Below are positions 6,911 to 38,463 of a DNA stretch of 64,000 nucleotides, piece after piece (position 1 is the stretch's first letter; each line of letters begins with the position of its first letter). Made by a program: the position numbers and the translations under genes. The notes under the pieces are model-generated. The model saw only the letters and a program-made list of their open reading frames with translations. It made no database searches and was not told the origin of the DNA. The stretch comes from Hymenobacter oligotrophus (GTDB taxonomy: Bacteria; Bacteroidota; Bacteroidia; Cytophagales; Hymenobacteraceae), in the NCBI RefSeq assembly GCF_003574965.1, contig NZ_CP032317.1, positions 1,860,001 through 1,924,000 on the forward strand. The letters are read 5' to 3'.

Positions 6911-7612
6911 TTATGAGTTGTTGATGAGCTTGTACTTAAGGGCGTACTGAATCAAGCCTACCACTGATTTGGAATTGGTTTTGGTAAGGATGTTTTTGCG
7001 ATGGGTTTCCACCGTTCGCTCGCTAATAAATAGCTTTTCGGCAATGAGCGCATTGGGGTACTCGCGGGCTATTAGCTGCAGAATCTCCATTTCGCGGGCC
7101 GTAAGCTCCACCGGTTTGTCCTCGCGGGCATCGTGGTGGTTGGCGCCGTTGCGGTGTAGGTTTTGGAGCAGCGCCGCGCCCACCTCGGCACTAAAGTACG
7201 TGCGCCCCGAGGCCACTTGCCGAATAGCATCGGTTAGCTCGGGTTTGGTGGTGTTTTTGAGCACGTAGCCCGAGCCGCCTGCTTCCAGCACATCGGTAAC
7301 AGAGCTGTGATCGTGAAAAACCGACAGCGCCATGGTGCACACGGCGGGGTGCGCCGTCCGGATGGCCCGCATCAGCTCCACGCCCGTCATGCCGGGCATG
7401 TTCAAATCAACGATGGCCACGCGAATAGCCGGGTTTTCTTGCAGGCGCAGCAGGGCATCGGCACCGCCGCCGGCCGTAGCCACCACCCGTATGTCGGGGG
7501 CATCGTTCAGCAGGGCTTTCAGGCCTTCAATCACCAGGGGGTGGTCGTCGACCAGCAATACAGAAAGTGCGCCGGCCGGGACTTGGCTTGCGGCTCCGGT
7601 AGTGTTGCTCAT
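6911..7612 (-). CDS. LuxR/NarL-family response regulator
   Basis: 233 residues from the ATG at 7612; a second ATG at 7642 would add ten residues, and neither has a strong ribosome-binding site. The receiver domain shows the acidic pair in LLVDDHP, the phosphoacceptor Asp69 in VAIVDLNMPGMTG, and the Lys in YVLKN. The C-terminal GerE helix-turn-helix reads ELTAREMEILQLIAREYPNALIAEKLFISERTVETHRKNI. It is a DNA-binding transcription regulator activated by phosphorylation. No cognate kinase is adjacent, so it is an orphan here; its targets cannot be named. CCTAGG (7623-7628) lies just upstream, within the longer alternative reading. Confidence 0.93.
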   Translation of the reverse strand: MSNTTGAASQVPAGALSVLLVDDHPLVIEGLKALLNDAPDIRVVATAGGGADALLRLQENPAIRVAIVDLNMPGMTGVELMRAIRTAHPAVCTMALSVFHDHSSVTDVLEAGGSGYVLKNTTKPELTDAIRQVASGRTYFSAEVGAALLQNLHRNGANHHDAREDKPVELTAREMEILQLIAREYPNALIAEKLFISERTVETHRKNILTKTNSKSVVGLIQYALKYKLINNS

Positions 7613-29071: not shown

Positions 29072-30529
29072 TCACGGGTTGGTGGCAGCCGCCTCCCAGC
29101 CACCACCTAGGGCACGGTACAACTCGATAAGCAGTTGAAATTGCTCCTTGCGCAGTTGGGTAGCTTCCAGCTCGGCATCGAGCACATTGCGCTGAGCGGT
29201 AATGACTTCGAGGTAAGTAGCCCGGTTGGCCACGTACAGGCTGTTGGAGGCCTCCACCGCCCGGTTGAGCGAGGCTACCTCTTGCTGCTTAAAAGCGTAG
29301 GCCCGCCGGAAATAAGCCAGCCCGCTGAGGTTGGTGTGCACCTCCCGAAAACCGGTCTGCAGGGCCTTCTGGTAAGCAAAAACTGCTTCGCGCTCGGTGG
29401 CGGTAGCGCGCTGATAATCGGCTTTTATCTGGCTGCGGTTGAACACGGGTGCGGCCAAGCCCGCCAGCAGCCCAAAGGCTACCGATTGCGGCTGAAACAA
29501 CAGCGACGTGCGGTAGGCGTTCAGCCCCACATAGGGCGTGATGGTGAGCGAAGGCAGAAACGCCGCCCGGGCAGCAGCCACGTCGGCGCGGGTAGCGGTT
29601 AGCTCCAACTCGGCCTGCCGGATATCGGGGCGGCGCAGCAGCAAACGGGTGGGCACGCCGGCAGCCACGCTATCGGGCAGTGCCTGCTGCCGGATGGGCG
29701 CGCCCCGCACCACGCGCTGCGGGTACCGACCCAGCAGTTGGTTCAGCTCGTTTTCGGCCCGCACGATGCGCTGGCGTACTTGCTGCTCGAGGCTTTGGGT
29801 GCGCAGCATTTGCGCAGTAAACTGCTGCACAGCCAACTCGGTGGCGCGCCCACCGGTTTTCTGCACCTGCACAATCTCGAGGGCGCGCTCCTGCAGGCGG
29901 GCGTTGCGCACCAGCACATCCAGCTCCGAGTCGAGGGCCAGCAGTTCGTAGTACAGGCTGGCTACCTGCGCCACCAGCGAGGTGGTAACCAGGTAGCGGC
30001 CTTGCTCGGTAGCCAACAAACGCGCATAGGCTGCCTGCCGGCGCTGCCGCAGCCGGCCCCACAGGTCGATTTCCCAGGTGCTACGCAGGCCCAGAAAGTA
30101 GTCGGGCGTGGCAGGATTGGGGATGCGCTGGTCGCCGCGGATGTTGGGCGAAAGGTTGGTGTCGTAGTTGCCGACGCCGTTGAGCGTGTACTTGCCCCAC
30201 CGATCGAAACCGGCGGCGGTTACCCCGCTTACCGTTGGGAACAGCGCCCCGCGGGCCGCCACCACCGAGGCCCGCGCCTGCTCGATGCGCTGCACGGCCA
30301 TGCGCACATCGAGGTTGTTTTGCAGGGCTGTATCGATGAGGCTGACCAGCCGGGCATCGGCAAAGAACTCGCGCCAAGGCCGCTCGGCAACGCTGGCCGA
30401 GTCGGCGGCAGCGGCGGGGCCGTACTGCGCCGGCAGCACGGCCGCGGCCCTAGGTGGTGTGGGCTCGGCCACTTTGCAGCCAGCTAGCAGCAGCAGGCTT
30501 AGCAGGAAATACAAGCGTTGAGAAAGCAT
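29072..30529 (-). CDS. RND efflux outer-membrane factor (OprM/NodT family)
   Basis: 485 residues from the ATG at 30529, chosen because it gives the lipoprotein signal LYFLLSLLLLAGC. The OEP/TolC fold is shown by two similar helical halves with PWREFFADARLVSLIDTALQ, RGALFPTVSG, STWEIDLWGRLR, LLLRRPDIRQAELELTATRADVAAARAAFLP and SLNRAVEASNSLYVANRATY. It forms the outer-membrane exit channel of the pump encoded just upstream (gap 217 bases). Last gene of the leftward efflux operon 35768-29072. Confidence 0.95.
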   Translation of the reverse strand: MLSQRLYFLLSLLLLAGCKVAEPTPPRAAAVLPAQYGPAAAADSASVAERPWREFFADARLVSLIDTALQNNLDVRMAVQRIEQARASVVAARGALFPTVSGVTAAGFDRWGKYTLNGVGNYDTNLSPNIRGDQRIPNPATPDYFLGLRSTWEIDLWGRLRQRRQAAYARLLATEQGRYLVTTSLVAQVASLYYELLALDSELDVLVRNARLQERALEIVQVQKTGGRATELAVQQFTAQMLRTQSLEQQVRQRIVRAENELNQLLGRYPQRVVRGAPIRQQALPDSVAAGVPTRLLLRRPDIRQAELELTATRADVAAARAAFLPSLTITPYVGLNAYRTSLLFQPQSVAFGLLAGLAAPVFNRSQIKADYQRATATEREAVFAYQKALQTGFREVHTNLSGLAYFRRAYAFKQQEVASLNRAVEASNSLYVANRATYLEVITAQRNVLDAELEATQLRKEQFQLLIELYRALGGGWEAAATNP

Positions 30530-30746
30530 GAGGTAGAGCATAAGAGCGGGCCGCCGCGGGTGCAGGGCCCGGCCTAGGTGGAGCGGCGCGTTGTGCAGGG
30601 CACCAGCGGAAGCTTCGGCACCGGTTCGCAGAAAAATGGCGGTTCCCCAACCGTAGCCATTTGCTTGCTCTCCGGCCCGAAGCCTGGCTGTGCCCGGCAC
30701 AACGCTAAGCGGCCTTGCCACCTAGGCGTTTAATCCGTTGTGTTAC

Positions 30747-33700
30747 TTAAGCTGGTTCGGGCTCGAGGCGCCGCACCGCGTGCCGGGTTTCCACCGGGGC
30801 TTCTTCGTCATCTTCTTCCGCAGCAGCGGGTTTGCTGAGGCCGGCAAACAGCACGTACAGGCCGGGAATCAGCACTACCCCAAACAGGGTACCGATGAGC
30901 ATACCGCCCGCCGAGGCCGTGCCGATGGAGCGGTTGCCCATGGCCCCGGCGCCCGAGGCAATGCACAGCGGAATCAGGCCCGCGATGAACGCAAACGACG
31001 TCATCAGAATGGGCCGCAGGCGCGACACGGCGCCCTCCACGGCGGCCTCGAGCACCGAGGCGCCTTGCTGCCGGCGCTGGTTGGCTACCTCGATGATGAG
31101 GATGGCGTTTTTGCCTAGCAAGCCGATAAGCATTACCAGCGCCACCTGCGCGTAGATGTTGTTTTCGAGACCTAGGAGCTTCAGCGACAGGAAGGCGCCG
31201 AACACGCCGGTGGGCAACGACAACAGCACCGGCATGGGCAGCAGGAAGCTCTCGTACTGGGCGGCCAGCAGCAGGTACACGAACACGATTACCACCAGAA
31301 AAATGTACACGGCCTGGTTGCCCGACAGGATTTGCTCGCGCGTCATGCCCGACCACTCAAAGCTGAAGCCGCGGGGCAGCTCTTTGGCAGCTACGCGCTC
31401 GGCCGCCGCGATGGCGTCGCCGGACGAGAAGCCAGGGGCGGGGTCGCCGTTGAGCATGGCCGAGGTGTACATGTTGTAGCGGGTGAGCAGTTCGGGACCG
31501 AACACGCGCTCCATGCGCAGGAACGTGGAGTAAGGCACCATTTCGCCGCGGTCGTTTTTGACGTAGAGCTTGAGCACGTCCTCGGGGGCGGCGCGGTAGT
31601 TGGGCGCAGCCTGCACCATTACCTTGTACATGCGCCCAAAGCGGATGAAGTTGGAAGCGTAGAGCGAGCCCAACAGCGTCTGGAGGGAGTTCATGGCCCG
31701 GTCCACGGTTACGCCTTTTTTGGCGGCCATCTCCTGGTCGACGTGGATGAGGTACTGCGGGAAGCTGGCGTCGAAGGTGGTGAAGGACGCCCCGATGGCG
31801 GGCGTTTGCGCCAGGGCCGTTACGAAGCGGTTGGTGACGGCGGCCGTCTGCTGCAGGTCGCCGCGGCCGGTTTTGTCGAGCACGCGCAGCTCAAAGCCGC
31901 TGCTGTTGCCAAAGCCCGGCACGGTGGGCGGCGAGAAGAACTCGATGTTGGCGTCGGTGATGTGGGCCGTGCGCTTGCGCAGCTCCGCAATCAGCTCGGT
32001 GGCCGTTTGGGGCCGCTCGTCCCAGGCTTTGAGGTTGATCATGCCCATGCCATAGGAGGCGCCGGCCACCTCGTTGAGCAAGCTGTAGCCGGCCAGCGTC
32101 GTCACCGATTCTACCGGCTCCAGCTTGGCGGCAGCTTGCTGAATCTGATCGAGCACGCGCTCGGTGCGCTCTACCGTGGCGCCGGGCGGGGCCGTTACGT
32201 TCACGTAAATCATGCCCTGGTCCTCGGTTGGGATAAAGCCCGAGGGCAGCACCGTGCTCACGCCGTACGTAGCCAGGCAGAACGCCAGAAACAAACCCAG
32301 CGTAACCGCGCGCCGGGGAGCCAGCCACCGCAGCAGGTTTTCGTAACGCCGGGCCAGCTGGTCGTAGCGGTGGTTGAAGCCGGCAAAAAAGCGGGCCATC
32401 GGCCCCGGGCGTTTGGGCGCGGCGTGGGCATCGGCCGTGGCGTCTTCGGTAGCCGTGCCGTGCGCGGGCATTGGCCTGAGCAACAGGGCGCACAAGGCCG
32501 GCGTCAGGGTAAGCGCGTTGATGCCCGAGATGACGATGGAAATGGCCAGCGTCAGGGAAAACTGCCGGTAGAACACGCCCACCGGGCCCGACATAAACGC
32601 CACCGGCACGAACACGGCCGACATTACCAGCGTGATGGCCACGATGGCCCCGCCAATTTCGCGCATGGCGGCCAGCGTGGCGGCCCGGGCCGACAAATGC
32701 TCCTCGTGCATCTTGACGTGCACGGCCTCCACCACCACAATGGCGTTGTCGACCACAATGCCAATGGCCAGCACCAGGGCGAAGAGCGTGAGCAGGTTGA
32801 TGCTAAAGCCCAGCATTTGCATAAAGGCCAGCGTGCCAATAAGCGCCACGGGCACGGCCAGGGCCGGAATCAGGGTGGAGCGCCAGTCCTGCAAAAACAC
32901 GTACACCACCAGAAACACCAGCAGAAAGGCCTCGAGCAAGGTGCGCACCACTTCCTGAATGGAGGCGTCGAGGAAGCGCGACACGTCGTAGCTGATGTTG
33001 TAGGACATGCCCGGCGGGAAGCTGGTTGCTTGCAGCTCCGCCATGCGCGCCTTTACGTTGGCAATTACCTCGCGGGCGTTGGAGCCGGGGCGCTGCTTAA
33101 GCATGATTGCGGCCGAGGCGCGGCCGTCGGTTTTGGAGGCCATGCCGTAGCTGAACGTGCCAAATTCCACGTCGGCCACGTCCTTCAGGCGCAGAATGGA
33201 GCCGTCGGCATTGGCCCGCACCACGATGTTGCGGTACTGCTCCGGCTCGAAAAACTTGCCGGTGTAGCGCAGCACGTACTGCAGCATTTGGGCCGTGCGG
33301 CCGGAGCTTTCGCCGGCCTGGCCGGGAGCGGCCTCCACGTTCTGGGCCCGGATGGCCTCCACCACTTCGTCGGCCGACACGTTGTAGGCCAACAGGCGGT
33401 CGGGCTTTACCCACACGCGCATGGAGTACTCGCGGGAGCCCATGATTTCGGCCCGGCCCACGCCGTCGATGCGCTTAAGCTCCTGCAGGATGTTGATATC
33501 GGCGAAGTTGTAGATAAACTTCTCGTCGGCCGCCGGGTCGGTGCTCATCACGTTCAGGTAGAGCAACATGCTGTTGACTTCCTTTTCCGTGGTTACGCCG
33601 GCGCGGATCACCTCCACGGGCAGCTCGTCGATAACCGTCGTGACGCGGTTCTGCACGTTCACGGCGGCTAGGTCGGGGTCGGTGCCTACCTCAAAAAACA

Positions 33701-33974
33701 CCTGCACGGCCGTGATGCCGTTGTTGCTGGTCACCGTCGACATGTACGTCATGCCCGGCACGCCGTTGATGGCGCGCTCCAGCGGCGTGGCCACGGCCTT
33801 GGCGCACACCTCGGCGTTGGCCCCGGTGTACTTGGCCGTTACCGTTACGGAGGGCGGCACAATTTCGGGAAACTGCGTGATGGGCAGGGTAAGAAACGCC
33901 AGCCCGCCCAGCAGCACAAAAATCAGCGAAATGACCAGCGAGAGTACCGGTCGTTTGATAAACAATGCGAGCAT
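30747..33974 (-). CDS. RND multidrug efflux permease (AcrB/HAE1 type)
   Basis: 1075 residues, usual for AcrB-like pumps. MLALFIKRPVLSLVISLIFVLLG forms TM1. The porter domains contain NGITAVQVFFEVGTDPD and QNRVTTVIDELP. The TM4 proton relay Asp pair is in LFALVLAIGIVVDNAIVVVEAVHVK, and RND repeats occur near GLIPLCIASGAGAMGNRSIGT. Proton-driven export of drugs, dyes, detergents or similar amphiphiles across both membranes. Middle gene of the operon; the adaptor is upstream, the channel downstream. The large antisense open frame over it is a GC artefact. Confidence 0.97.
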   Translation of the reverse strand: MLALFIKRPVLSLVISLIFVLLGGLAFLTLPITQFPEIVPPSVTVTAKYTGANAEVCAKAVATPLERAINGVPGMTYMSTVTSNNGITAVQVFFEVGTDPDLAAVNVQNRVTTVIDELPVEVIRAGVTTEKEVNSMLLYLNVMSTDPAADEKFIYNFADINILQELKRIDGVGRAEIMGSREYSMRVWVKPDRLLAYNVSADEVVEAIRAQNVEAAPGQAGESSGRTAQMLQYVLRYTGKFFEPEQYRNIVVRANADGSILRLKDVADVEFGTFSYGMASKTDGRASAAIMLKQRPGSNAREVIANVKARMAELQATSFPPGMSYNISYDVSRFLDASIQEVVRTLLEAFLLVFLVVYVFLQDWRSTLIPALAVPVALIGTLAFMQMLGFSINLLTLFALVLAIGIVVDNAIVVVEAVHVKMHEEHLSARAATLAAMREIGGAIVAITLVMSAVFVPVAFMSGPVGVFYRQFSLTLAISIVISGINALTLTPALCALLLRPMPAHGTATEDATADAHAAPKRPGPMARFFAGFNHRYDQLARRYENLLRWLAPRRAVTLGLFLAFCLATYGVSTVLPSGFIPTEDQGMIYVNVTAPPGATVERTERVLDQIQQAAAKLEPVESVTTLAGYSLLNEVAGASYGMGMINLKAWDERPQTATELIAELRKRTAHITDANIEFFSPPTVPGFGNSSGFELRVLDKTGRGDLQQTAAVTNRFVTALAQTPAIGASFTTFDASFPQYLIHVDQEMAAKKGVTVDRAMNSLQTLLGSLYASNFIRFGRMYKVMVQAAPNYRAAPEDVLKLYVKNDRGEMVPYSTFLRMERVFGPELLTRYNMYTSAMLNGDPAPGFSSGDAIAAAERVAAKELPRGFSFEWSGMTREQILSGNQAVYIFLVVIVFVYLLLAAQYESFLLPMPVLLSLPTGVFGAFLSLKLLGLENNIYAQVALVMLIGLLGKNAILIIEVANQRRQQGASVLEAAVEGAVSRLRPILMTSFAFIAGLIPLCIASGAGAMGNRSIGTASAGGMLIGTLFGVVLIPGLYVLFAGLSKPAAAEEDDEEAPVETRHAVRRLEPEPA

Positions 33975-34187: not shown

Positions 34188-35405
34188 TCAGTAGGCGTGC
34201 ACCGTGGCTACCGAACCGCTGCCGCCACCGCTGGGCCTAGGTGCTGGCGCCAGCAGGCTATCGATGCCCACGGCCCGGGGCCTGATGCGCATACCGTCGC
34301 GGGCATCCTGCACGCCTTCGTACACCACCCGGTCGCCGGGCTTCAGGCCGGCTTCCACCACATAAAAGTGCGAGAGGCGCGTTTTGGGCACAAAGTGCGT
34401 TTGGCGCAAGCGGTTGTCTTGGCCGACGAGGAACACGTAGTTTTTGTCCTGAAGCTCGAACACGGCCTTTTGCGGCAGCAGCACGGCATTGGCTACCTCG
34501 CTGGCGAGCTTAATGCGGCCGGTGGCGCCGTGCTTCAGCAGCTTATCGGGGTTCTGGAAACGCGCCCGGAACGCAATGGAGCCGGTGTTGGCATCGAACT
34601 CGCTCTCCACGGTTTCGATGCGCCCTAGGTGCGGGTACTGCGAGCCATCGGCCAGCACCAGCTGCACCTCGTCGGCGTGGCTGCTGGGGCCTTTGGCGCG
34701 GCGCTTCATGTAGTCGAGGTACTCGCCCTCCGACACCGTGAAGTAGGCAAACACGGCCCGGATGTCGGACACGGTGGTGAGCAAGGTGCCGTCGTCGACC
34801 AGACTGCCCACTTTCAGCGGAATCCGGTCGATGATGCCATCGAAGGGGGCGCGCACCTGCGTGTACGAGAGGTGCAGTTGGGCATCGGCCAACGACGAGC
34901 GGGCCTGCGCGGCCTCGGAGTGCGCGGCCTTCAGCTTGGCCTGGGCCACCTCCAGCTCCGTTTTCGACACGATGTTTTTATCGACCAGCAGCGTTACTTG
35001 CTTTACCTCCAGCTCGGCTACGCGGGTGGCGGCTTGGGCGCTGGCCAAGGCCGCTTTTGCCTTGCTGATTTGGGTGCGGTACGGCGCGTCGTTGATGCTG
35101 AACAGCAGTTGGCCTTGTGTTACCTCCTGGCCTTCGTCGACGTGAATTTTATCGAGGAAACCCTGCACGCGGCCGCGCACCTCCACGTTGCGCAGGGCCT
35201 GAATGTCGGCTACGTACTTGCGAAACAGCACGGTATCCTTGGCTACAAGCTGCGTAACGGGCAGCACGGGCGTAGCTTCGGTGGCGGCGGCGGCGTTGGC
35301 CGATTGCTCGGTTTCGCCTTTGGCCGTGCAGCCGGCCAGGGCCAGGCCACCTAGGGCGGCGGAAAGCAGGGGTAAGCGTAGTATTTGGGGTAGCGGTGCG
35401 AGCAT
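34188..35405 (-). CDS. RND efflux periplasmic adaptor (MFP)
   Basis: 405 residues from the ATG at 35405, giving the lipoprotein signal LLSAALGGLALAGC. Typical adaptor order: a barrel-sandwich lipoyl half (VRGRVQGFLDKIHVDEGQEV), an alpha hairpin (about 105-175), the second lipoyl half (RAPFDGIIDRIPLKVGSLV), a beta barrel and a membrane-proximal C-terminal domain (GLKPGDRVVYEGVQDARDGM). It links permease and outer-membrane channel. A four-unit ATTAG array lies 61 bases upstream of its start, so it may have its own regulated promoter. Confidence 0.95.
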   Translation of the reverse strand: MLAPLPQILRLPLLSAALGGLALAGCTAKGETEQSANAAAATEATPVLPVTQLVAKDTVLFRKYVADIQALRNVEVRGRVQGFLDKIHVDEGQEVTQGQLLFSINDAPYRTQISKAKAALASAQAATRVAELEVKQVTLLVDKNIVSKTELEVAQAKLKAAHSEAAQARSSLADAQLHLSYTQVRAPFDGIIDRIPLKVGSLVDDGTLLTTVSDIRAVFAYFTVSEGEYLDYMKRRAKGPSSHADEVQLVLADGSQYPHLGRIETVESEFDANTGSIAFRARFQNPDKLLKHGATGRIKLASEVANAVLLPQKAVFELQDKNYVFLVGQDNRLRQTHFVPKTRLSHFYVVEAGLKPGDRVVYEGVQDARDGMRIRPRAVGIDSLLAPAPRPSGGGSGSVATVHAY

Positions 35406-35465
35406 AGCTATTTGCCTTGCAAAGGCAATAAGGGTGGTTGGCGCCTCCAAAATTGATGTAGCGAC

Positions 35466-35502
35466 ATTAGAGCCGCATTAGGGCGGCATTAGAAAACATT
35501 AG
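35466..35502 (-). promoter_or_regulatory. Operator-like array: four ATTAG units, spacing 11/11/10
   Basis: ATTAG starts at 35466, 35477, 35488 and 35498 (plus strand; CTAAT read leftward). It lies upstream of the adaptor gene and overlaps the stop codon of the small gene at 35499. Helical phasing and tandem orientation are typical of OmpR-family regulator sites. The same architecture recurs at 35805. Confidence 0.65.
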
Positions 35503-35768
35503 AGGCGAGTTTGGGCGGTGGGCTGCCGTTGCCGCAGCAGGCTAACCAGCACGCTATCCTTGCGCAGCTGCTCGGCCTGGCAGGCGGCCAATTGGCCTTG
35601 CATCAGGCGCAGCTCCACCGCCGACTCGTCGGCCACGGTTTCGCGGTCGAGGCGGTAATCGGCTCCGGGGTACAGCAAATAGCAGTTTAGGCTGGCCGAC
35701 AACAGCAACGCCGCCAGCAGCAGCAAAGCGGGCAGCGGCGTTGGCCGACGATGCTTTTTCATGGGCAT
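35499..35768 (-). CDS. Small membrane-anchored protein at the head of the efflux operon
   Basis: 89 residues from the ATG at 35768 (a second ATG two codons later is equally good): MPMKKHRRPT, then one membrane span (LPALLLLAALLLSASLNCYLLY), then a charged helix likely to be a short coiled coil (VELRLMQGQLAACQAEQLRKDSVLVSLLR). It lies between the two ATTAG arrays and 93 bases upstream of the adaptor. It may be a small accessory or regulatory subunit of the pump or its sensor. No family recognised. Confidence 0.6.
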   Translation of the reverse strand: MPMKKHRRPTPLPALLLLAALLLSASLNCYLLYPGADYRLDRETVADESAVELRLMQGQLAACQAEQLRKDSVLVSLLRQRQPTAQTRL

Positions 35769-35804
35769 AAATGCACGGATCGGCCACAAAGGAGGCCGTA
35801 GCGC

Positions 35805-35841
35805 ATTAGAGCCGCGTGAGAATCGGATTAGAAAAAATTAG
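35805..35841 (-). promoter_or_regulatory. Operator-like array upstream of the efflux operon
   Basis: ATTAG at 35805, the degenerate GTGAG at 35816, then ATTAG at 35827 and 35837: spacing 11/11/10, identical to the 35466 array. It begins 37 bases before the ATG of the small membrane protein gene. Confidence 0.65.
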
Positions 35842-35946
35842 AAGGGCATGCGGCAAGTGCGTTTGCCGGGCGTGTCGCGCCTTAACACGGCCTGTTGAGC
35901 ATGTTGCGCTTGGAGCAAGGTACCGCGGCATTTCACCGGGTAGTGT

Positions 35947-36242
35947 TATCATCCTGAGCCTGAGCGAAGGGCCTTATCGAAACCTCACCCCCCGGCCCCC
36001 CTCCAGAAGAGAGGGGAGCTAGGCGACCTAGGGCCGTTGTCATGTCGAGCAGGGCGAGACATCTGGGGTGCTGACGCTTGATAGCATCCACTCCCCTCTC
36101 TTCGGGAGAGAAGCTTGCCGCGTAGGGGTCCCGTGAGGTTCAACGAAGCAGGCGTGATAAGGTCCTTCGGCTGGCGCCTCAGGATGACATAACAATAGTA
36201 TCGGGCGTCAACTCGCAGATGTCTCGCTTTGCTCGACATGAC
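35947..36242. repeat. Mosaic of three intergenic inverted repeats, two interleaved
   Basis: Arm A 35947-35978 (TCATCCTGAGC...CCTTATC) pairs imperfectly with 36156-36188. Arm C 36039-36065 (GTCATGTCGAGC...GACATCTG) pairs with 36216-36242 in 25 of 27 positions. Inside A are B arms: AACCTCAC (about 35980) with GTGAGGTT (36133-36140), and AAGAGAGGGGAG (36007-36018) with CTCCCCTCTCTT (36091-36102). The A and C pairs cross rather than nest. No gene is present in this 505-base gap between the kinase and the efflux operon. Confidence 0.7.
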
Positions 36243-36273
36243 AAGCCGTACTCGCCCTGACAAGCCCTAGGTG

Positions 36274-37668
36274 CTAGTGGGCCGCTTTGGGCTCGGCAGC
36301 CGCTACGTATGCCGGCAGCCGCACGGTAGCGGTGGTGCCCTGCCCCGGCTCCGAGCTTAGGGTAAGCTCGCCTTTATGCAAGCGTACTACTTTTTGCGTG
36401 ATGGGCAGGCCAATGCCGTAACCGGGCTGCGCGCGGCCGTTTTCGGCCCGAAACAGCGGCTCGAAAACGCGCTGCAAGGCCTGTGGCTCGATGCCAATGC
36501 CTTCATCGGCAACGGTTACGAGCAGGGTTTTGCGGTTGTGGTAACCCAGCTGCACCGTTACGGGCTTGCCGGAGTACTTGCAGGCGTTGTCGAGGAGGTT
36601 GAAGAGGGCGGTGGTGAGCAGGTGCTCGTTGCCCAGCACCATAAAGGGGTCCTCGAGGTCGTCGGGCAGGTAGCCGAAGTGCAGCTGCACCGCGCAATTG
36701 GTGTGCTTGGCCGTGCAGTAATCAATGGCTTGGGTTAGGCACTCATCCAGGCGCACGGGGTTGCGCTTGAAGCTGGTCTCGTCGGCTTTGGCGAGGGCCA
36801 ACAGGCCGTTGGTCAACTCAATAATGCGGCGCAGCTCCTCGATGGACGACTGCATGCTGCGCTTGGCCTCGGTTAAATCGGTGTCGTAGCTCAGGGAGGT
36901 TTCGAGGGTACCTAGGGCGTTGGCCAGCGGCGTGCGCAGCTCGTGCGAGGCGTGGGCCACAAAGCTTTTGTGGGCGTCGAAGGCCTGCTCCAGCCCCTCG
37001 AGCATGCGGTTGAACGTAATGGCCAGCTGAGCAATTTCATCCTTTTGGTTGCCCTCGTGCACGCGCTGCCCTAAGTTGGAGGCCGTAATGCGGCGCACCT
37101 CGCGCACGATGCGCGCAATCGGCTTCAGCGACTCTTCGGCGAAGTACCAGCCGGCCACCACCGTGAGGGCCAGCGCGCCAATGTTGCCCACCAGCAAAAT
37201 CAGCAGCAGCTTGCCCAGTTGCTCGTGGCCTACTTCGTCGTGGCCGGCGGCAAAAATGCGGTAGCCCTGTCCGCGGTGCTCGTAGTACGCGCCCAGGCAC
37301 TCGCGCCCGTCGTACCAAAATGCTACTTGGTGGTTGGGCTGAATCTGACTTAAATGCGCTCGGTTGCCGCGTTGGTCGATGTGGTCGTCGGAGGCGTAAA
37401 TAAGTTGCCCCTGCGGACCGAAAATGCTGATTTGCTCGCCGGCGTGCGTCACCAAATCGCGCCGCCGAAACGCGCTCAAAATACCGCTGCGCAAATTGTC
37501 GCGCTCGAGCAGAATGCGGCCCGTAAGCTCCACTTTACCCGCCAAGCGGTTATGAAACTTCTTTTCGCGCGTGGCAGCATTGAAGTAATAAATGAACAGC
37601 GAAAAACACAGCTGAATAGCCAGCACCAGCAGCGTAAAGCGCAGAATCAGTTTATTACGAATCAGCAT
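36274..37668 (-). CDS. Sensor histidine kinase (EnvZ/CusS-like)
   Basis: 464 residues. TM1 at about 8-28, a periplasmic sensor region to about 150, TM2 at about 152-175, HAMP (about 176-228), HisKA with phosphoacceptor His242 in SHELRTPLANALG, and HATPase_c with NLLDNACKYSG, VADEGIGIEPQAL and GYGIGLPITQKVVRLH. It autophosphorylates and passes phosphate to the regulator encoded 117 bases upstream. The signal is unknown; position next to an efflux operon suggests metal, drug or envelope stress. Transcribed after the regulator gene. Confidence 0.95.
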   Translation of the reverse strand: MLIRNKLILRFTLLVLAIQLCFSLFIYYFNAATREKKFHNRLAGKVELTGRILLERDNLRSGILSAFRRRDLVTHAGEQISIFGPQGQLIYASDDHIDQRGNRAHLSQIQPNHQVAFWYDGRECLGAYYEHRGQGYRIFAAGHDEVGHEQLGKLLLILLVGNIGALALTVVAGWYFAEESLKPIARIVREVRRITASNLGQRVHEGNQKDEIAQLAITFNRMLEGLEQAFDAHKSFVAHASHELRTPLANALGTLETSLSYDTDLTEAKRSMQSSIEELRRIIELTNGLLALAKADETSFKRNPVRLDECLTQAIDYCTAKHTNCAVQLHFGYLPDDLEDPFMVLGNEHLLTTALFNLLDNACKYSGKPVTVQLGYHNRKTLLVTVADEGIGIEPQALQRVFEPLFRAENGRAQPGYGIGLPITQKVVRLHKGELTLSSEPGQGTTATVRLPAYVAAAEPKAAH

Positions 37669-37785: not shown

Positions 37786-38463
37786 TCATCCCTCGCGCAT
37801 GGTGTAGCCCATGCCTACCACCGTATGAATAAGCTTGGGCGTGAAATCTTTGTCGATCTTTTTGCGCAGGTAGCTCACGTACACGTCAATGATGTTGGTG
37901 TTCGTGTCGAAGTTCAGCTCCCACACCCGCTCGGTAATATCCACGCGGGTTACGGTTTTCCCGCGGTTGAGCAGCAGGTACTCGAGCAAAGAATATTCGC
38001 GGGTGGTGAGGTCGATGCGCTGACCCGCACGGGTTACGTAACGGCCGTCGAGGTTGAGTTCGAGGTCGGCCATGCGCAAAACGCGTTTGGCCGTGGCGGC
38101 CTCGTGGTTGCGCTTACCTAGGGCCCGAACGCGCATCAGCAACTCCCTGAACTCGAAGGGCTTTACGAGGTAATCGTCGGCGCCGGCCTCAAAACCGGCC
38201 ACTTTGTCGTCGAGGCTATCGAGGGCCGTGAGCATGAGCACGGGCACGTGGGCGTCGTGCTCGCGCAATTGGCGGCACAGCTCAAACCCGTTGATGTAGG
38301 GCAGGTTTACGTCGAGAATAACCACATCGTAGCGGTTGCGCTCGAGCAACGATTTGCCCACGCGGCCGTCGTAAGCCACCTCAATCTCGTAGGCCTCGTT
38401 TTCGAACCCTTTCCGGATAAACGAAGCCAGCTTGGGCTCGTCCTCAACCAACAATAGCTTCAT
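37786..38463 (-). CDS. OmpR/PhoB-family response regulator
   Basis: 225 residues from the ATG at 38463 (MKLLLVEDEP); the longer frame has no sensible N-terminus. Receiver: the acidic pair in VEDEP, Asp51 in VVILDVNLPYINGF, Thr in MLTALDS, Lys in YLVKPFEF. The C-terminal winged helix has DLTTREYSLLEYLLLNRGKTVTR, NIIDVYVSYLRKKID and HTVVGMGYTMRE. Forms a two-component pair with the kinase at 36274. The tandem ATTAG arrays in front of the efflux genes are good candidate binding sites (inference). Confidence 0.96.
   Translation of the reverse strand: MKLLLVEDEPKLASFIRKGFENEAYEIEVAYDGRVGKSLLERNRYDVVILDVNLPYINGFELCRQLREHDAHVPVLMLTALDSLDDKVAGFEAGADDYLVKPFEFRELLMRVRALGKRNHEAATAKRVLRMADLELNLDGRYVTRAGQRIDLTTREYSLLEYLLLNRGKTVTRVDITERVWELNFDTNTNIIDVYVSYLRKKIDKDFTPKLIHTVVGMGYTMREG

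Follow-up and report, generated by a model that had tools for sequence, protein, structure and literature searches.

The question raised by this locus is what two rows of short direct repeats do in front of the genes of an efflux pump in Hymenobacter oligotrophus. In the 64-kb stretch analysed here (hereafter, the window), the initial annotation had read the repeats as ATTAG, starting at 35466, 35477, 35488 and 35498 and again at 35805, 35816 (as GTGAG), 35827 and 35837, and these positions are exact to the base. Because all of the genes involved lie on the minus strand, the motif should however be read as CTAAT with a spacing of 10/11/11, and the layout common to both arrays is CTAAT-N5-CTAAT-N6-CTMAY-N6-CTAAT. 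Array 1 (35805..35841, minus strand; CTAAT-N5-CTAAT-N6-CTCAC-N6-CTAAT) precedes the gene for a small membrane protein and reads, from 35841 to 35805, CTAAT-TTTTT-CTAAT-CCGATT-CTCAC-GCGGCT-CTAAT. Array 2 (35466..35502, minus strand; CTAAT-N5-CTAAT-N6-CTAAT-N6-CTAAT) precedes the adaptor gene of the pump and reads, from 35502 to 35466, CTAAT-GTTTT-CTAAT-GCCGCC-CTAAT-GCGGCT-CTAAT; here the first unit and the stop codon of the small protein gene overlap. The arrays had been described as identical, which is true of the spacing layout but not of the sequence, where identity amounts to 79% over 39 nt.

In the order of transcription, the locus comprises a response regulator, its kinase, array 1, an 87 amino acid protein, array 2, an RND adaptor, an HAE1-type permease and a NodT-type channel. 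The regulator (37786..38463, minus strand; 225 amino acids) belongs to the OmpR/PhoB family, with a receiver domain (PF00072, 106 bits) followed by a winged-helix Trans_reg_C domain (PF00486, 88 bits), and the phosphorylatable aspartate, Asp51, is present within the segment VVILDVNLP that starts at residue 47. The sensor histidine kinase (36274..37668, minus strand) has HAMP, HisKA and HATPase_c domains, so that domain models bear out both neighbours proposed earlier. The best-scoring annotated family for the regulator is TIGR01387 (cztR/silR/copR), at 251.1 bits. A heavy-metal (Cus/Czc) regulator was nevertheless dropped as an identity, as this score lies below the cut-off of 279.2 and the repeats are direct rather than inverted; the PmrA/BasR model (NF007928) likewise gave 176.2 bits against a cut-off of 330.

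Behind array 2, the periplasmic adaptor (34188..35405; TIGR01730, 255.5 bits, cut-off 94.9), the permease (30747..33974; TIGR00915, 1079 bits, cut-off 940) and the outer-membrane channel (29072..30541; TIGR01845, 267 bits, cut-off 210), all on the minus strand, identify the pump as a member of the HAE1 RND multidrug efflux systems. The first gene behind array 1 (35499..35762, minus strand) encodes the 87 amino acid protein, which has one apparent membrane helix (LLLSASLNCYLL) and returned no match in a Pfam search. Look-alikes with an LS-x-x-LN-x-Y motif stand behind the array in several Hymenobacter loci (L074, L075, L077-L079 and L081), and such a small single-helix protein persists in loci for which a search downstream of the array found no RND pump (L075, L079 and L081). 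It is perhaps a partner of the kinase or of the pump. The DNA between the kinase gene and array 1 (35946-36260) is filled by dispersed repeats: allowing two mismatches at most, the genome has 34 copies of the pattern GTCATGTCGAGC-N3-GCGAGACATCT (0 in the reversed control), frequently as closely spaced inverted pairs.

The arrays are rare. A degenerate four-unit pattern matches the window twice, at the arrays themselves, and gave no match in 65 shuffles of the window (4.16 Mb in total). The whole genome of 4.19 Mb was searched for sites with patterns and with a sequence model. When up to two mismatches were allowed, a three-unit pattern retrieved only the two arrays (one match in the reversed control), and a 57-nt model returned them with E-values of 5e-16 and 4.5e-12, the next place having an E-value of 1.7. 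The genome scan proposed earlier as a route to the regulon therefore recovers both arrays but no further strong site; a broad regulon in this genome was dropped, and from the sequence the regulon looks limited to the two array promoters. Autoregulation was also dropped, since no array stands in front of the regulator gene here.

Absence of the arrays from orthologous loci had been named as the outcome that would count against the regulator, and the arrays are present there. The regulator was found in six of seven Hymenobacter congeners at 85–97% identity, and all six carry both arrays; in the seventh, neither an ortholog of the regulator nor, with the 57-nt model, an array was found. Among the seven congeneric genomes in which both arrays are conserved, several have unrelated DNA separating the kinase gene from array 1, and the arrays are kept regardless. 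The corresponding gap in two congeners (L037 and L038) reads as a short-chain dehydrogenase gene with a terminator-like hairpin, array 1 being intact.

Beyond close relatives, four or more direct units with an 11-bp period are found right behind the kinase gene in relatives of the regulator from Hymenobacter, Spirosoma, Mucilaginibacter, Pedobacter, Chitinophaga, Flavobacterium and other genera. Over 160 loci, the array density is 0.746 per kb in the zone behind the kinase gene, 1.25–1.9 kb behind the regulator, versus 0.008 per kb (same strand) and 0.009 per kb (other strand) outside it, an enrichment of approximately 90-fold. In 120 genomes of the family, 42 of 49 strong sites lie on the same strand 1.4–3.4 kb behind a regulator that is at least 70% identical. 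Downstream of the arrays, the genes differ among loci and include RND/OEP and HlyD parts, SulP permeases, a P-type ATPase with Mntp, bestrophin, PAP2 and one ECF sigma factor; the array thus follows the regulator and not the pump. Arrays were undetected in roughly one quarter of a first set of loci, in 47 of 100 loci of a second set and in ten loci of more distant regulators. In one Hymenobacter strain (L075), a second full array (7043-7099) precedes a gene for an ECF sigma factor that is situated upstream of the regulator, which suggests a regulatory cascade in that strain.

A putative promoter box follows each array at a fixed distance. The consensus of the flavobacterial -7 box is TAnnTTTG (PMC9723704), and the candidate boxes here are CTCCTTTG for promoter 1 (35787..35794, minus strand) and CAATTTTG for promoter 2 (35448..35455, minus strand), the G of each standing 22 nt downstream of the C in the last unit. 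Placing the box at -12 to -5, as in PMC9723704, predicts transcription starts near 35782 and 35443, respectively. As in the primary-sigma promoters described for Bacteroidota (PMC9723704), TTTG is kept at a fixed spacing; unlike in those promoters, the TA is missing in the window and is replaced by CT or CA, as at weak or activator-dependent promoters. In 13 of 14 arrays from the seven congeneric genomes TTTG ends exactly 22 nt past the first base of the final CTAAT, the fourteenth having TTCG. Among 53 arrays of the first set, found by a search that made no use of TTTG, [TC]TTG occurs at offset 22 in 31 and at offset 34 in 11; only the first set was used for these spacing statistics, since TTTG earns a bonus in the scores of the second. 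A clade of Sphingobacteriaceae and Flavobacterium loci (L122, L124 and L127-L132) has TTTG 34 nt from the last unit, farther away by about one helical turn, and two Spirosoma loci (L080 and L082) have the perfect box TAGCTTTG. A GGCC-TCCTTTGT-GGCC hairpin at promoter 1 was rejected as a conserved element, as array 2 and Spirosoma have lost it but retain TTTG.

The first base of the repeat unit varies with a single residue of the regulator. The recognition helix reads VYVSYLRKK, and its fifth residue is Tyr198 (codon at 37870..37872, minus strand). In the first set, the first base of the core unit is C in 109 and T in 13 units of members with Tyr, versus 8 C and 76 T for members with Phe or His. 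The last figures become 2 C and 74 T on leaving out two coding-strand matches: at L104 and L105 the matches lie on the opposite strand inside coding DNA and are the only two exceptions in the set, whereas the TTTG-linked array on the other strand obeys the rule. A second set, 100 further loci from a search of 395 Bacteroidota genomes, was taken as a second test and gave 110 C and 44 T for Tyr versus 1 C and 44 T for Phe or His. Phe and His are hence accompanied by T (TTAAT) nearly without exception, while Tyr favours C (CTAAT) and tolerates T, four Tyr members having mostly T units (L183, L185, L220 and L249). With Lys, Arg or Met in this column, none of 12 members has a detectable array.

On trees from which the helix columns were left out, the residue changes six times in the first set and nine times in both sets together. 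The motif follows the residue in 53 of 55 rows of the first set (55 of 55 using the TTTG-linked arrays of L104 and L105) and in 91 of 95 rows of both. An independent-pairs test gave 3–4 supported pairs with none opposite, and with so few pairs it falls short of significance (p 0.125–0.5). The column aligns with Tyr220 of the PhoP regulator from Mycobacterium tuberculosis, the side chain of which hydrogen-bonds C5 of TCACAGC in the crystal structure (PMC4832192). Its counterpart in PhoB is Arg201, which makes a bond to a guanine, and in PmrA it is Asn196 (PMC3973317), for which base reading has been reported in a PmrA-DNA crystal structure (PMC4660055). That Phe, having no hydroxyl, should accompany loss of the C is what the Tyr220-cytosine contact would predict, and we infer that a similar contact may operate here.

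Taken together, conservation of the arrays, their co-occurrence with the regulator, the variety of genes behind them, their phasing with the promoter and their covariation with a DNA-contacting residue support the earlier proposal that they are the motif through which the regulator controls the pump. It is very probable, judging from these comparisons, that both arrays are operators of the adjacent regulator, bound in tandem and activating the small gene and the pump operon. The kinase would phosphorylate the regulator before it binds, and one DNA-binding domain may then occupy each 11-bp unit, TTCTAAT-N4, with Tyr198 of the recognition helix predicted to read the C of CTAAT. Each array would hold a head-to-tail row of four such domains, presumably two dimers. 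This stoichiometry has a precedent in PhoP, which binds DNA with four 11-bp-spaced motifs, the same period, at 2.2 nM and more tightly than two-motif DNA (PMC4832192). The promoter-proximal unit would lie over the -33 region, approximately 10 bp upstream of the weak -7 box with its TTTG but no TA, and from there the regulator could recruit RNA polymerase in the manner of a class II activator. Promoter 1 would thereby switch on the small membrane protein gene, and promoter 2 the operon of adaptor, RND permease and channel.

The regulator could conceivably act at the same sites as a repressor, for example by blocking the -33 and -7 regions, with phosphorylation relieving the repression. Occlusion is physically possible because the last unit overlaps the -33 region, but the -7 box without TA is what is expected of an activator-dependent promoter, and the TTTG box starts some 10 bp past the last unit, as with class II activators. 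The two fixed phasings (22 and 34) are also better suited to activation by contact, since occlusion requires no fixed phase. Members of the OmpR/PhoB family encoded beside their targets are mostly activators, and we regard repression as unlikely.

Binding by a different regulator would have its most obvious candidate in a paralogue elsewhere in the genome (L040; G000:C1, about 1697600-1700000), which is 57% identical to the regulator, falls in the same subfamily and likewise has an 11-bp array. This paralogue, however, carries Phe in the key column, and a separate array of the TTAAC type follows its own kinase gene. The CTAAT arrays, for their part, occur together with the local regulator, and binding by a different regulator is accordingly very improbable. 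In two relatives, a TTAAC-type array of the paralogue kind precedes a SulP permease gene. It is scarcely credible that the repeats reflect chance or low complexity, or form an RNA or translation element with TAATG overlaps, serving no regulator at all. The overlap of the first unit of array 2 with a stop codon would suit such an element, yet the shuffles gave no matches, the arrays are concentrated behind the kinase gene in the 160 loci, and the distance to TTTG is fixed though the flanks change. Moreover, the promoter box lies downstream of the arrays, so that transcripts from these promoters probably do not include them.

As a kind, tandem direct-repeat sites of OmpR/PhoB regulators are already known from PhoP and PmrA, and the present arrays resemble them in their head-to-tail units and 11-bp period. 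M. tuberculosis PhoP similarly recognizes a 7-bp unit with a 4-bp spacer, TCACAGC-N4-TCACAGC, arranged head-to-tail, some promoters having tri- and tetra-repeats, and it shares the Tyr in the same helix column, which there contacts the C at unit position 2 (PMC4832192). It differs in unit sequence, phylum and promoter type, and the regulon here seems confined to the regulator's own locus. The PmrA box of PmrA/BasR, CTTAAT-N5-CCTAAG, has head-to-tail [CT][CT]TAA[TG] half-sites with an 11-bp period and a base contact from the same helix column (PMC3973317, PMC4660055), but two units as against four, and the regulator falls well short of the PmrA/BasR family score. For the CusR/CopR/PcoR/AgrR group (TIGR01387), which scores best with the regulator and for whose AgrR type II activation has been proposed, the core site is an inverted repeat, ATKACAN4TGTMAT (PMC7380067), unlike the direct array seen here. 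In the open-access papers searched, subscription papers lying outside this scope, no earlier description was found of the operator of this regulator clade, of its promoter layout in Bacteroidota or of the residue-base correlation.

More broadly, we consider it somewhat probable that a large clade of regulators in Bacteroidota shares one promoter grammar, composed of at least four head-to-tail 11-bp units that stand at one or the other of two set distances from the -7 box, directly follow the kinase gene and precede varied cargo, in which one helix residue sets one base (Tyr permitting and favouring C, Phe or His giving T). If so, both the motif and the regulon would be predictable from the protein sequence of the regulator alone. 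For dozens of two-component systems that otherwise lack annotation, the arrays would provide a motif, a promoter geometry and targets. Together with the PhoP contact, the correlation of Tyr versus Phe or His with C versus T would turn OmpR/PhoB specificity in this clade into a testable question about one residue, and may offer a route to understanding how paralogous regulators within one genome stay insulated from each other.
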